From Poseidonibacter lekithochrous (GTDB lineage: Bacteria; Campylobacterota; Campylobacteria; Campylobacterales; Arcobacteraceae), in assembly GCF_013283835.1 (NCBI RefSeq), contig NZ_CP054052.1, forward strand, positions 558,001-622,000: a DNA stretch of 64,000 nt, in the 5' to 3' direction. Position 1 is the stretch's first letter. The number at the start of each line of letters is the position of its first letter. The notes below the pieces were generated by a model. That model was not told the DNA's origin. It saw only the letters and a list, made by a program, of their open reading frames with translations, and ran no database searches. Shown here piece by piece: positions 46,135-53,199 of this stretch. A program made the position numbers and the translations under genes.

Positions 46135-46161
46135 TTAGAAGAGCCTTTGTGGCTCTCCTAA
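46135..46161. terminator. Hairpin at the moaA/EAL junction
   Basis: The arms TTAGAAGAGCC / GGCTCTCCTAA pair at 10 of 11 positions around a five-base loop. The hairpin overlaps the last codons of the EAL gene and lies directly after moaA, so it can work in both directions. Confidence 0.55.
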
Positions 46162-48453
46162 ATGATAACCTTGAGAATAATCAATCCCTAAATCTTTAAT
46201 AGTTTGAAGAACTTCTTCATTTATTACAAACTCAGCAATTGTTTTAATTTTTTGTTTTTTTGCAAATACAATAATTGATTCAACAACATGCCTACTATAA
46301 TCATCTGTAACAATATTTTTAATTAATGAACCATCAATTTTTAGTATATCTGGTTGGAATTCTAATAATCTTTCGTAATTAGAATAACCACTTCCAAAAT
46401 CATCTATAGCAATTTTTACTTTACCTTCTAATTTACTTTTCAAAATAAAGTCTTTTACTAATTCAAAATCTTTAACTTCTTCATCTTCTAATAATTCAAA
46501 AGTAATTCTTCCTATGTGTTCTTTTTTTGTGATTAATTTAAGTAATTGTTTTCTTACATGTTTACTTTCAATATCAGAAGAAGAAAGATTAATTGTAATC
46601 TCTTTATCTGTATGTTTTAAAGCTTTAAATGAATTCTCAATTACTAGTTCTGTAATATCAGAATAGTATCCTGTTTTTTTAGCAATATTTAAAAATTGGA
46701 AAGGAGATACAATATTTCCATTTTTATCAATTAGTCTAATAAGAGATTCATATTTGTCTATTTCACCGGTTTTATTATTAATAATAGGTTGGAAGAAAGA
46801 TACAAAACTTCCTTCTTTTGCTAGGGCACTTTTGATCATACCAATATTTTTTAGTTTATTTCTAGCTTCTATTTGAGCTCTACTATGGAAATTTTTTGCA
46901 TTAATAATAGGTATTTTATACTTTAATCCATGTTGAATCCCTAAATACGCATCATCTAATATATGTGTATCTTCGTAAGCAAAACTAATGCAAATATCTA
47001 CATCATAATTAGTCTCTTTAAATGAAATACCAATTTGTTTAAATCTTTCAATAACTTCTTTTAGGATTTTTATTAATACTTTTTCATCATAAATTTCATT
47101 TTTAAGAAATGCAAATAAACCATTTGTTAGGTTATATACTTTTTTTTGATTAAAATTATGAGGGAAATAATTAAGAATTACTTGCTCAAATTCAAATTCA
47201 AAAGTATGCATTAATGTTTCAGAATAAAACTCTTTAAATAGATCATAATTAGCTATTTGTAAAAATATTAAAGTTGGTGTATTCACATAAGATAAATCTG
47301 CGATTAACTGTTTTTTTGGATTCATTACATCCGTAATATCATGTCTTATTCCAATAATCTCTTTTATATTTCCATTAATATCAATAATTGGAGAGATTGT
47401 TGCATCCACATAATAAGCAGTTCCATCTCTTTTTTTATTTTTTAAAATACCTTTGAATGTTTTATGAGCTTTTATTTTTCCCCACATATCTTCAAATATT
47501 TTTTTAGGCATATCTGGATGTCGTACAACCCTATGTGATTTTCCTAATAAGTATTCAAGTGAATAACCACTAATTTTACAAAATTTATCATTTGCTTCTT
47601 TTATAACCCCAGATGGATTAGTTTTACTAACCATATCACTATCATTTAATACTCTTTTGTACTCTTCTAACTCTTTTGCCTGAGAAGCTATTTTTGTAAG
47701 GTACTCACCTTGTTTTATATGTAAATCAGCTTTTAAAAGTATCTCTTCTGCTGAAAAAGGTTTTCTAATAAAATCAACGGCACCATGTTTTATTACGTGT
47801 GAATATTTCTGTTTATCTTCACTACTTGAAATTATAATAATAGGAATATCTTCTAGTTTAGGGTTGTTTTTGATTTTTTCTAATACTTCTATTCCAGATA
47901 AATTAGGCATTTCTAAATCTAATAAAATTAGATTTACTAAAGAACCTTTTTCTAAGTGTTCTATTCCTGCTATTCCATCTTTTGATTCAAAAATAGTATA
48001 GTTTTTCATTTCTAAAATATTTCGTATAGTTTTTCTTACAAAAGTAGAATCGTCAATGATTAATATATTTTTATTTTTATTATTTGATAAATCAATAATT
48101 AATTTATTAATATCTTTTATAAGGGTTTTCAGTGGGATATCTTTTGAGAAATAATCAACAACACCATGTTCAAAAAGATAGTTTCTTCGTTGAATATCTT
48201 GATTCCCAGATAAAACAATAATTTTTGGATGTTTTTCTTTTTGAGAAGAAAATTGTAAAATTAGTTCATCTCCTTCTCCATCTGGAAGGATCAAATCAAG
48301 TATTATATAGTCAATATTAGCATTCTCTTCAACTTTTTGAAGAGCTTCCTTTAATGTAAATGCTTGTAATATTTCGTAATCAGGATGTCGAAGTAAAGCA
48401 AATAACGTATTGTTATATGTCTTGGAATCTTCAACAATTAAGATTTTTGTCAT
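46135..48453 (-). CDS. Double-receiver PAS-EAL signalling protein
   Basis: 772 residues: two receiver domains (about 1-118, with DLILPDGEGD, and 125-245, with LLDLEMPNLSG), a PAS domain (about 262-375; SGYSLEYLLGKSHRVVRHPDMP), a degenerate GGDEF-like region without the GG(D/E)EF loop (about 380-535) and an EAL domain (about 545-772) with YESLIRL, IDDFGSGYSN, LKIDGSLI and QGYHLGEP. The EAL residues for c-di-GMP hydrolysis are largely intact. It is probably a phosphorylation-controlled phosphodiesterase. GAGG precedes the ATG. Confidence 0.9.
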   Translation of the reverse strand: MTKILIVEDSKTYNNTLFALLRHPDYEILQAFTLKEALQKVEENANIDYIILDLILPDGEGDELILQFSSQKEKHPKIIVLSGNQDIQRRNYLFEHGVVDYFSKDIPLKTLIKDINKLIIDLSNNKNKNILIIDDSTFVRKTIRNILEMKNYTIFESKDGIAGIEHLEKGSLVNLILLDLEMPNLSGIEVLEKIKNNPKLEDIPIIIISSSEDKQKYSHVIKHGAVDFIRKPFSAEEILLKADLHIKQGEYLTKIASQAKELEEYKRVLNDSDMVSKTNPSGVIKEANDKFCKISGYSLEYLLGKSHRVVRHPDMPKKIFEDMWGKIKAHKTFKGILKNKKRDGTAYYVDATISPIIDINGNIKEIIGIRHDITDVMNPKKQLIADLSYVNTPTLIFLQIANYDLFKEFYSETLMHTFEFEFEQVILNYFPHNFNQKKVYNLTNGLFAFLKNEIYDEKVLIKILKEVIERFKQIGISFKETNYDVDICISFAYEDTHILDDAYLGIQHGLKYKIPIINAKNFHSRAQIEARNKLKNIGMIKSALAKEGSFVSFFQPIINNKTGEIDKYESLIRLIDKNGNIVSPFQFLNIAKKTGYYSDITELVIENSFKALKHTDKEITINLSSSDIESKHVRKQLLKLITKKEHIGRITFELLEDEEVKDFELVKDFILKSKLEGKVKIAIDDFGSGYSNYERLLEFQPDILKIDGSLIKNIVTDDYSRHVVESIIVFAKKQKIKTIAEFVINEEVLQTIKDLGIDYSQGYHLGEPQRLF

Positions 48454-48519: not shown

Positions 48520-49182
48520 TTAAATATATTTATCTATTATTTGTTTCTTTTCTTCTTTTTGTTTTTCATCCTGTTGTTTCTCAAAAACTTTAACACTTTC
48601 CTTTAGTAAAAGCTCTTGATGTGTTTTACTTGTCATTACAGAATTTAATGTCTCTAAATCTTCTTCTCTTCTATTTTGATTATTTACATTTTCATTAGTT
48701 GTTTCATTATTAGATCGTTGATCTTCTCTAAACTCTTTTGTAAAAAGATTTTTATCTAAAAGAATTAGAACACAATAAAGTTCTTCTTCTTCAATATTTT
48801 CATTGGCTTTTGTATTGTTATTTGATTTCATCCAATAAATCATAGTGATTAAATCATGGCAAGTATTTGAAATTAGATTTAACTCTTTTGCATAGGTGAT
48901 TAATTTGTATTCATTTACATTTAACCATCGCTCTTTTAGATTATGTGCATTTTGATTGTAGTTTTTTTCTTCATGTATTTTTTCTAAAAAATTGTTAATA
49001 CCAAAAAACTCTATACGTCTTTGAATATTAATAACTATAGTATTCCAAATAGCAAATAAACTATAAGAGTATTGCTCTAATTTAATAAGTTCAGCTACTT
49101 CTTTTATGGAATATATTTCACTTTCTTGAAGGCTAAATCTTGGATTTGATGGATTTGATAATAACTCTGGATATGTTGTCAT
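48520..49182 (-). CDS. Hypothetical protein
   Basis: The start is chosen at the internal ATG of 49180-49182, because AAGGAGG lies five bases before it; the longer frame would put this site inside the gene. About 220 residues, helical, with a Glu/Asn/Lys-rich C-terminal third (RREEDLETLNSVMTSK onward) likely to be coiled or disordered. No family is recognised. The gene lies between the EAL protein and the large chemoreceptor on the same strand, so a link to signalling is possible. Confidence 0.6.
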   Translation of the reverse strand: MTTYPELLSNPSNPRFSLQESEIYSIKEVAELIKLEQYSYSLFAIWNTIVINIQRRIEFFGINNFLEKIHEEKNYNQNAHNLKERWLNVNEYKLITYAKELNLISNTCHDLITMIYWMKSNNNTKANENIEEEELYCVLILLDKNLFTKEFREDQRSNNETTNENVNNQNRREEDLETLNSVMTSKTHQELLLKESVKVFEKQQDEKQKEEKKQIIDKYI

Positions 49183-49258
49183 TTTATCCTCCTTCATTCA
49201 TTATATAAATTATACTTAAAAATGTGAGAAATTATGTGCAATATCCAGAACTACAATA

Positions 49259-52200
49259 TTATTTACTTAAAATGCAATCTAAATTGTTAAATAAGTTAAT
49301 AGTGTTTTTTTCAATTATCTTAGCTATATTTTTCAACTCATCATTAGAATTGTTTTCTGAGTTTTTATTTATATACTCTTGAAGATTTTTATGTAAATTT
49401 TCTTGACTTGTTTTTAATTTTGGCCAATATGAATTTTTTGTATAATCTTGATTTTCTAATTCACTTTGTATTATCCATTTACCTAGATTGCTTTGATTAT
49501 ATTTTTCTATTTCCCAAGGATTAAAAGTATTAAGTTTTGCAAAATTATTATCTTTGAAATTAATGTAATCATTTTTAAATGTTGAAAGTTTTTGTAATAA
49601 ATCTAAATCTGAAACTTGATTTCTTATATCTTTATCTAAAATAGCTTTACTTGTAATATTCATAAGCCTTTGAGATAATAAAGAAACATCAGTTGATAAA
49701 TTATCAATAGAAGAGGCTGTTGAAGCATTTTCTTGTGTCGTTTTATCTAATGAATTAACTACATCATTAATTTGATACATACCACTTTCTTGTTCTTTAC
49801 TTGCTTGAGATACATTATGAATCATATCTTTTGTTTTAGATATTTTTTCATTTAGTTTTTCATAACCTTCAATCATTTGTGATGAGATTTGTTTTCCTGC
49901 ATTTGATTTAGATGAAGCATCTTCTACTAAAATTTTAATTTCGCTTGCCGCTTGTGCACTTCTTGAGGCTAAGTTTCTAACCTCTTGCGCTACAACTGCA
50001 AAACCTTTTCCTGCTTCTCCTGCTGTTGCTGCTTCCACTGCTGCGTTAAGTGATAATATATTTGTTTGGAATGCAATTTGATCAATAATTTCAATTGCTT
50101 CACTTATATTTATTACTTTTTTATTTATTTCATCCATTGCTGTAGATGTTTTTGAAGCTAAAGAATTTCCTTGTATTGCAGAATTATTTAATTCATTTGA
50201 TACCTCAGTCATAAGTAACACATTTTGATTATTACTTCTGATATTTTCTGTAATTTGCTCAATTGCAGCAGCTGTTTCTTCAAGTGATGCAGCTTGTTCA
50301 TTAGAAGCTGTTGATAAGTCTTGAGAAGAACTTGCTAATACATCTGTTGATGATTTTAATTCATTTCCTGCATTATCAATCATTGCCATTAATGAAGATA
50401 CATTTCTACCTAATAATTTTGATGATGTGTAAAGTGAACCAATATCTCCACATAATTCTTGTGTTTGAGACTCTTCTAAATCATATTTGAAATTATTAGA
50501 AGCATAGTTATCTAAGATTGTGTTTATACTATCAAGTCTATCTTTTGTATTTATAAGCATATCATTTATGTTTTTTCTTAAAGCCTCAACTTCTTTTGTT
50601 GCACCTTCTTGTTTGATGGTATAACAGAAGAAACCATTAGAAACTTTTGACATAATATCATCGATTTCTTCAACTACAAGTCTATCTTTTTCTATGAAAT
50701 TTTGAGTTTTTATTATTTGCTCATTCATTTCACTTGTCATTTGTGAGAATTCATCACTCCCATTTACTTTTGAAATATCTATTTTGTCAGTTTCTCTTAC
50801 TGCATATTTAAAAAATGAACTAAGTCCTGTCTTGAAGTTTTGAAGTGAATTAAGAATTGTTTGCGTAATAACTCTAGAGATAAGTAAAATTATAATTAAG
50901 CCCAAAATTGTAAATGAGGCTGTTATATATAAACTATTAGAAGAATTGTCTTTTAATACTTTAATATCTTTTGTTATCTTCTTCGAAATAAAAGAATCAA
51001 TCTTATCTAGTTTTGCAATCTTTGTATTAAAATTTTTTATCCAAGAATTAATATCTATTCCAAAACCACCAATTGTATTAGTGTTTAGTGCTATATTTCT
51101 TAGCTTTTCAACTTCATCAAAAATCTCTTCTTTAATCTTTTTTTCATTTACTGTATCAGTATATAAACTAAGCATATCTTCTGTGGCATTTTTAAAGAAT
51201 ATATTCATATAGTTATTTTGTTCTGTGATTAGTTTTACAAATTCACTTTTTTGTTTATTTGTAAATCTGTTTTTTGAAAATGCATTAGCTCCAATTGCTC
51301 TCTCAATTCCAGCTCTCTCTTTTGCTAATAAAAAACCATAATAAGCTGTAATATCTTTATTCTCTTCTACTGTAGTAGCTCCATTAGAAATACTCCAAAA
51401 TGTAGTAAGCAAATTTTGGTTTATTGATGAAAAATATTTATTTGATTCATTTTCACTTATTGAAAGTTTAGAGATTTTAGCTCTTACATCTTCTAATTTA
51501 TCTAGTGTTTTAATAATAGATTTAATATCTTTTTTTACTTGTGTTGTAAGAAGATTTTTATCAATTGCTTTAATTGCATTATTAAGTTCTTTAATTCTAA
51601 AGTTTGTTTCAAATCTTTCATTTTTAAGCTTTTTAATAAACTTTGTACCATTACTTGCAATATATCCTGAACTAACTGCTATCTCTTTTTGTGTTGCATG
51701 TAATAAATCACTTATTCTTGTTGCAATTTCAAGTTTTTCAAAAAGTTTTAAATCATCAATTCTTAAGGAATAAGATAACTCACCTTCCATTTGTTTTAGA
51801 ATATTTATTTTTTTAGTTAAGGTATCAAACCAGTGAATAGAGTTTATATTAAATCCACCTAACTCTTTTGATTCAAGAAGTGTTTCTCTCATTTGTTTTA
51901 TATTAGTAATAGATTTATCATTTAAAGTCTTTTTTGTAAACTCTTTCATTTCTTTTGAAGCATATTGTAAATAATTACTTAGATATGAATTTTGTGAGGC
52001 GATAATATTGTTTAACTCAGATTGCATTCCTTTATGAAAGGCATCGTTTGTTATTGTATTCATACCAATAGCTTTTTCAATTGAAGCTTTTTCTTTTGCA
52101 TATAAAAAAGAAGAGTAGGCTGTTAACTCTTGTGATATTTTAATATTATTAGACTCTTTTGCTGTAAGAACAGTAATATCTAAAAGTTTATTGTTAAGCC

Positions 52201-52642
52201 TTGAATAATAAGCCATTGTTTCATCAATACTTATATTGGATGTTTTTATTTTTTGTCTATGTGTTTGTATTTCATTTAAAAAACTATTAATACTTTTTGT
52301 AGCTGAAAAAAGTTTATTTGAGTAGTTTTTATATTCAATACTTTTTAGAAAACTTTTATAAATATTTATTTGTTTATCTGTTTTCTTTATCTGTCTTAGC
52401 AGTTTTTCTTTATTACTTGAATAAGTACTTGCATATTCTCTTTCGTTTTGTGTCTCTTTTAATACATAAGAAATATTTTTGCTAAGCTGATTTAATGTAT
52501 CAATTTTATTCATGGTATCTACATTGTTATATGAATCATTTATTTTTATAAATGATAATATCATAAGGCCAATTATTGGAACAATTACTAATAAAAGTAA
52601 TTTATTCTTTATATTTATATTCTCTAAATTCAAAAGTTTCAT
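49259..52642 (-). CDS. Very large chemoreceptor with two NIT-like segments and a degenerate CZB tail
   Basis: 1127 residues. Helix 1 (about 13-29) is followed by a 550-residue periplasmic region with two NIT-like (nitrate/nitrite-sensing) copies, marked by [19 protein letters not shown] and [19 protein letters not shown], then helix 2 (about 573-592), HAMP-like segments and the signalling tip [20 protein letters not shown]. The tail (about 1020-1090) fits the zinc-binding CZB pattern, but the ligand positions are Y1026, S1051, Q1080 and H1084, so only the last is conserved. It probably senses nitrate or nitrite and signals to CheA. Confidence 0.85.
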
Positions 52643-52869: not shown

Positions 52870-53142
52870 ATGGCTTTAGATCAGGATTTAAAATCAGAGA
52901 TTATAGCAAAGTTTGCAAAAAAAGATGGTGATACAGGTTCAGCGCAAGTTCAAATTGCAATTTTAACTGAGCAAGTTAAAGTTTTAACTGAGCACTTAAA
53001 AATCAACAAGAAAGATCACTCTTCAAGATTAGGTCTTTTAAAAATGGTTGGTAAAAGAAAAAGACTTTTAGCATACTTAAGAAGAACAAACTATACTGCA
53101 TTTACAGAATTAGTTGCTACTTTAGGTATTAGAGCTAAATAA
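52870..53142 (+). CDS. rpsO: 30S ribosomal protein S15
   Basis: 90 residues with the family's [15 protein letters not shown] and [24 protein letters not shown]. It binds 16S rRNA in the 30S platform. AGGAGG lies just upstream of the ATG. It is followed by a strong terminator. Confidence 0.98.
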
Positions 53143-53162
53143 TTTTTTAATAAATTATATTC

Positions 53163-53199
53163 AAAAAAGGGTCACAGTTTTCTGTGACCCTTTTTTTTT
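53163..53199 (+). terminator. Rho-independent terminator after rpsO
   Basis: A GGGTCACAG / CTGTGACCC stem, extended by A/T pairs, with a four-base loop and a long T-run. Confidence 0.95.

Follow-up and report, generated by a model that had tools for sequence, protein, structure and literature searches.

The C-terminal tail of the large chemoreceptor described here is most probably a CZB-type helical bundle that has lost its canonical zinc site and now acts as a zinc-independent clamp in a receptor with periplasmic input, a reading to which a probability of about 0.6 is given. The gene lies in a window of 64,000 nucleotides (the whole stretch of DNA analysed) of the genome of Poseidonibacter lekithochrous, which measures 3.57 Mb in one contig (code G000). 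Judged by its sequence, the tail would not be counted as a zinc-sensing CZB domain, but as a zinc-less variant of the known one.

The large chemoreceptor announced by the earlier note is real, and the features of its gene are collected in Table 1. Having an MCP signalling domain and two transmembrane segments, the product is a methyl-accepting chemotaxis protein, and both NIT stretches are located between its two hydrophobic segments. Genome G009 contains an orthologue, 94% identical over the full length, with neighbours also found in the window (a histidine kinase, a 225-aa gene, an EAL gene and, named by eye, a moaA-like gene). The nearest relatives after this orthologue are two receptors, L014 and L015, 59% identical and with His, Cys, His and His at the four zinc ligand positions (HCHH, zinc-type). 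Together with L016-L020 they are zinc-type NIT-NIT-CZB receptors having the same architecture and aligning over nearly the full length with the receptor of the window, from which they differ in keeping the HCHH ligands. Among plasmid records, a single one (Aliarcobacter butzleri) carries a relative of the tail, 39.7% identical.

Table 1. Features of the chemoreceptor gene, in positions of the window
Feature	Position	Strand	Description
Membrane chemoreceptor gene, NIT-NIT-MCPsignal-CZB-type tail	49259..52642	-	1127 aa, ATG start, intact frame
First transmembrane segment	52535..52612	-	About aa 11-36, hydrophobic stretch within aa 8-38, hydropathy
NIT copy 1	51773..52459	-	aa 62-290; Pfam; R68 kept, K185/K190 replace two helix-5 Arg
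NIT copy 2	50978..51709	-	aa 312-555; Pfam; I321 replaces helix-1 Arg, R443/R448 kept
Second transmembrane segment	50873..50935	-	About aa 570-590, hydrophobic stretch within aa 567-601, hydropathy
MCP signalling domain	49739..50206	-	aa 813-968; Pfam PF00015, E 3.6e-36
Zinc-less CZB-type tail	49262..49648	-	aa 999-1127; profile homology and predicted fold
Y1026	49565..49567	-	First zinc-His position, TlpD H315
S1051	49490..49492	-	Zinc-Cys position, TlpD C340
Q1080	49403..49405	-	Second zinc-His position, TlpD H368
H1084	49391..49393	-	Single ligand position kept, TlpD H372

The earlier note had also proposed that the CZB fold remains in the tail, with a structure prediction against a CZB reference as the check, and both homology and predicted fold bear this out. 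A profile made exclusively of HCHH sequences (48 related tails) scores the tail at 149 bits, whereas none of 200 shuffled tails was matched. The model obtained with AlphaFold2 from an alignment of 30 tails, for a fragment of 157 residues, is a four-helix bundle with pLDDT 90 or more in 105 of the 157 residues, from about residue 50 onward. Its top match in the PDB is the CZB domain of DgcZ (3t9o; Foldseek probability 1.00, E 0.045), with Z 13.6 and rmsd 2.4 over 112 residues. Taken alone this fold match is modest, because middling Z values come easily to helical bundles, as with the runners-up LytS and the MID domain of DosC at Z 11-12, and because a sequence search of the PDB with the tail of a zinc-type relative gave nothing at E up to 10. 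The DosC MID domain (4ZVC, E. coli) is a similar four-helix bundle (Z 11.2) that aligns with the tail at 6% identity, and the likeness may be a mere common arrangement. Taken together, predicted fold and profile evidence firmly support the assignment of the tail as a CZB homologue.

This relationship escapes Pfam, since the CZB family (PF13682) has no match in the whole protein at E up to 1 or in the tail alone at E up to 5. In the alignment of 30 tails (A2) the tail is the single miss, with Pfam CZB found at E up to 1 in 29 of the 30, some of these matches being weak (the NTKH tail of L028 at E 0.012, below Pfam's cut-off). The motif CX(L/F)GXW(Y/L), given for CZB domains by Perkins et al. 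(2021; PMC8262984), is present only in altered form, as SNLGKWI, in which Cys has become Ser and the last place is Ile while the remainder is kept. The tail shares with the known CZB systems (DgcZ 3T9O and TlpD) the predicted fold, the placement behind the MCP domain as in TlpD, the xLGKW surroundings of the former Cys with its glycine (G1054), the anchor W1056 (TlpD W345) and D1025 (TlpD D314). It differs from them in that three of four zinc ligands are replaced and Pfam fails to recognise it; moreover, the receptor is a membrane protein with a NIT sensor, whereas TlpD is soluble.

The zinc ligands of TlpD are H315, C340, H368 and H372 (PMC12871147), and the residues that the earlier note had named at the corresponding positions of the tail are exact. 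A test for the 3His/1Cys zinc core finds Y, S, Q and H (YSQH), so that the loss of ligands claimed by the note also stands, three of four being gone. By plain pairwise alignment, H, C, H and H occupy these positions in 100 of 103 related tails, a set of 106 from which the tail itself and two NTKH rows had been removed beforehand. Residues 999-1127 contain one His (1084) and one Cys (1123); from this composition the canonical 3His/1Cys site cannot form, nor can a rearranged His/Cys site within one chain. Of the 26 non-ligand positions with at least 80% conservation among 147 HCHH tails, the tail retains 22, against one of the four ligands (Fisher p 0.031), and the four changes are conservative (V/I, F/Y, V/L, V/L); the same comparison gives p values not below 0.05 in three of the five YSQH and NTKH tails (0.069, 0.069 and 0.126). 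In 62 of the 147 HCHH tails the zinc Cys is preceded, at a distance of three residues, by another Cys (position 1048, CxxC), which is absent from all five YSQH and NTKH tails.

The first survey of relatives was drawn from query-similar tails among the matches listed, and its frequencies are therefore biased: of 152 distinct tails, 145 were HCHH, two YSQH, two NTKH, one TCHH and one HSHH, the remaining one being a cut copy of the tail under study (L008, YS--). Duplicates, tails lacking full coverage and this cut copy were dropped, and a third NTKH genome and one HSHY tail were added later. The most altered tails were missed, as became apparent from a search of the host genome with a profile of 30 tails. 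This search yields seven CZB-type tails, namely two HCHH, the YSQH tail of the window, one NTKH, one LSQQ (732-aa receptor), one YSTD (648-aa receptor) and one HSHH (300-aa PAS protein), and in four of the seven three or four ligands are lost. On these sequence comparisons, ligand loss is more widespread than the receptor of the window alone could reveal. The 300-aa PAS protein (L275, G000:C1:1439657-1440025) has a CZB-like bundle with three His, Ser in place of Cys and no LGKW, and adjoins CheA-like and receptor reading frames (neighbours named by eye).

The NTKH receptor is found in the host genome (993 aa, C1:2923634), in G009 and in G011, which belongs to another genus; the tails of G000 and G009 are 58% and 57% identical, respectively, to that of G011. 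The YSQH and NTKH groups have lost the same three ligands and kept the last His. When 67 receptors were placed in one tree, the two YSQH rows grouped apart from the three NTKH rows; both groups had support 100 and lay among HCHH receptors. Furthermore, a tree built without the tail from 59 receptors in which NIT occurs together with a CZB-type tail has well-supported branches that force three separate losses, in YSQH, NTKH and HSHY; this set excludes 10 full-length receptors with the tail but without a NIT match (nine HCHH, one HSHH).

Two further families are more strongly altered. In family C (LSQQ type), sampled as 30 + 20 loci among the matches listed, the first His, the Cys and the second His are absent from all 50 tails examined, the last His is present in 22, 13 have no His at all, and the motif C-x-[LMFIV]-G-x-W occurs in none of the 50; these tails come from 13 of the 20 genera searched. 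In family D (YSTD type) all four ligands are lost in nine of nine full tails (L313 gave none and L317 is cut). Each family forms one group, with support 98 and 100, respectively. The tails of both are probably derived from CZB, as judged by the profile, which gives 86.8 and 32.5 bits to the family C and D tails of the host genome, and by single-sequence searches: the family C tail matched a zinc-type tail at E 5.9e-23, and the family D tail matched the zinc-type tail of the host genome at E 4.2e-7. No Pfam CZB match is reported in the two host proteins. From its distribution the zinc-less family C looks old. In the family C receptor of the host genome (L274, G000:C1:1081517) a CxxCH motif precedes the membrane segment; with a weak Tll0287-like match (E 0.016) in addition, the protein is perhaps a haem-based sensor. 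When 138 rows were thinned by identity to a tree of 74 receptors, again built without the tails, seven changes of zinc state were counted on the best tree, at least five of them forced: four are losses of three or four ligands (YSQH, NTKH, C and D) and three are losses of one or two (HSHY, TCHH and HSHH).

The main rival to the clamp supposes that the former zinc pocket has been rebuilt for a new ligand, be it a small polar molecule, an anion or another metal, and that the tail is still a cytoplasmic sensor. This is judged unlikely, although polar residues serve as replacements, each lineage having its own set (Y-S-Q-H in two species, N-T-K-H in three genomes), the last His is retained in both lineages alike, and a halide lies near the zinc site in TlpD crystals (PMC12871147). 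In family C, however, L, I, V or A stands at the first position, with variation at the others, which argues against one common new ligand there.

Selection on the tail bears on a second alternative, according to which zinc control is gone and the tail is a drifting remnant in the course of being lost. Between the two YSQH species, dN/dS is 0.088 for the tail (132 codons) and 0.087 for the whole gene. Seven pairs of HCHH tails, two of which share a member, range from 0.040 to 0.149, and an eighth zinc-type pair of distant paralogues (L001/L002) reaches 0.277 at dS about 1, so that the control range is not tight. Since the value of the tail falls within the range of the seven closer pairs, the tail is, by this sequence measure, under purifying selection in the YSQH lineage; this value, together with a loss common to a second species, makes decay unlikely. 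In the NTKH lineage the tail has dN/dS 0.163 (G000 against G009), about five times that of its MA region, and 0.382 over the longer distance between G000 and G011, from which some relaxation of constraint is likely there. The figure of 0.163 for the closer NTKH pair and that of an HSHY/HCHH pair (0.193) are above seven of the eight zinc-type pairs and speak for drift, as does the occurrence of smaller losses (TCHH, HSHH, HSHY). Against it stand the intact frame of the gene and the retention of a zinc-less tail by family C in 13 genera, and drift is considered an improbable account.

Continued zinc binding by the tail, with H1084 assisted by acidic residues, C1123, water or a partner subunit, is very improbable. 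Loss of one ligand need not abolish binding: in DgcZ zinc affinity is reported to be an order of magnitude higher with the Cys, and that of the C52A variant is used as a known value (PMC8262984). Three ligands are gone here, however, as against one in C52A, and the tail contains a single His and a single Cys.

A core that is kept, ligands that are shed and selection that continues make the zinc-independent clamp the simplest reading, the role itself being suggested by analogy with TlpD. In TlpD two CZB bundles straddle the coiled coil, whose movement accompanies a distorted zinc site; with zinc bound the receptor is taken to be kinase-on, and in its apo form kinase-off (PMC12871147). When the last 45 residues are removed from TlpD, its polar placement and chemotaxis are both lost (PMC13001251). 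The input to the receptor of the window is periplasmic, through two tandem NIT domains. By analogy with TlpD, the CZB-type bundle would pack on the membrane-proximal coiled coil, hold it in one geometry, aid assembly in a metal-free state and still contribute to signal relay, array packing or polar placement. In a 2026 preprint, zinc availability is proposed as a messenger of redox state for CZB receptors (PMC13370339); receptors in which the zinc site is absent should not read that messenger in the usual way. With such a clamp, the receptor of the window would be uncoupled from zinc/redox control and answer to periplasmic input alone, while other receptors of the same genome would retain such control.

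Concerning that input, Pfam PF08376 matches two stretches of the receptor above its cut-off (144.9 and 139.2 bits), and the kinship that the earlier note saw between the two copies is confirmed by 28% identity over 249 positions (blastp E 2e-26). A model of the NIT-NIT region (7 sequences, pTM 0.57) matches NasR (4AKK) with Z 32.8 over 257 residues. The match spans residues 1 to 527 of the model (m52df391c96af) with 257 aligned, a hint at packing of the final helix of copy 2 against copy 1. Unlike the NIT domain of NasR, that of the receptor is periplasmic and duplicated, with pocket arginines changed in each copy: copy 1 has R68/K185/K190 and copy 2 I321/R443/R448, so the arginines of the proposed nitrate pocket are complete in neither, each copy keeping the others. 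Of the 46 NIT copies in the data set, 40 have the helix-1 Arg and 39 have Arg at the position taken as NasR R176. In NasR, E175/R176 form the predicted nitrate pocket (PMC7496416), and we infer from the alignment and the Q-E-R order that K190 stands at R176. The nitrate or nitrite sensing implied by the earlier note finds no support in these residues, I321 and K190 having replaced Arg in copies 2 and 1; together with the result on PA4520 (PMC6381276), this makes nitrate an unsafe choice of ligand, and nitrate sensing by this receptor appears doubtful.

The NIT pattern is shared by L014 and L015 (with N for K185 and V for I321), whereas L016-L020 have the arginines in both copies. Since L014 and L015 keep their zinc ligands, the NIT change probably predates the zinc loss in this lineage. 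A link between the two traits was considered and rejected: among the first 31 receptors the R176 position was changed in 5 of 5 ligand-lost against 3 of 26 zinc-type receptors, but among 59 receptors the change, still present in 5 of 5 ligand-lost ones, was found also in 27 of 54 zinc-type ones, and there are three independent pairs, with the NIT trait differing in at most one, which gives no evidence of a link. In the host genome NIT also occurs at G000:C1:1291072 and 1353912, in a PAS-GGDEF cyclase-like and a histidine kinase-like protein, respectively (both named by eye).

As for the genomic setting, a 225-aa protein having no confident Pfam or NCBIfam match is encoded between the receptor and the EAL gene (48520-49197, minus strand), 61 bp downstream of the receptor, and its relatives are found in 19 of 104 genomes of the family. 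It was rejected as an operon partner: in G001, the single case examined, the relative sits about 15 kb from a CZB receptor on the same contig, and no tight partnership was seen. Further downstream lies a 772-aa protein with two receiver domains, PAS and EAL (46135-48453, minus strand), in an order kept in G009. A ribosomal protein S15-like gene, named by eye, is divergent from the receptor (52870-53196, plus strand) and is accompanied by a terminator-like hairpin at 53163-53196. A promoter scan gave 40 sites against 52.2 expected in shuffled sequences and was set aside.

CZB domains have been described as zinc/redox sensors with an essentially invariant cysteine, conserved at about 100% in the survey of Perkins et al. 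(2021; PMC8262984). The automated step of that survey accepted sequences with the 3His/1Cys core and left the rest to manual review, so the figure may be partly built in. Such a step would skip domains like the present one, which is also missed by Pfam; this is a blind spot, and in the literature searched, outside of which most subscription papers lie, no description of a zinc-less CZB was found. The changed use of a sensory module suggested by the earlier note is strengthened by the repeated and conserved ligand loss in relatives. Such loss, which appears long-standing in one group, suggests that the module probably does something other than zinc sensing. With natural zinc-less CZB bundles on otherwise intact receptors, what the bundle does structurally can be told apart from zinc sensing and its zinc-free function becomes testable; a suitable comparison is readily available in this receptor and its zinc-type sisters. 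More broadly, and at slightly less than even odds, zinc-less CZB bundles may be a standing class of chemoreceptor module in the bacterial family of the host, arisen by repeated and once ancient conversion and serving as a zinc-independent regulatory clamp or as a sensor for another signal, in which case the view of zinc as indispensable would rest partly on searches that required the core.
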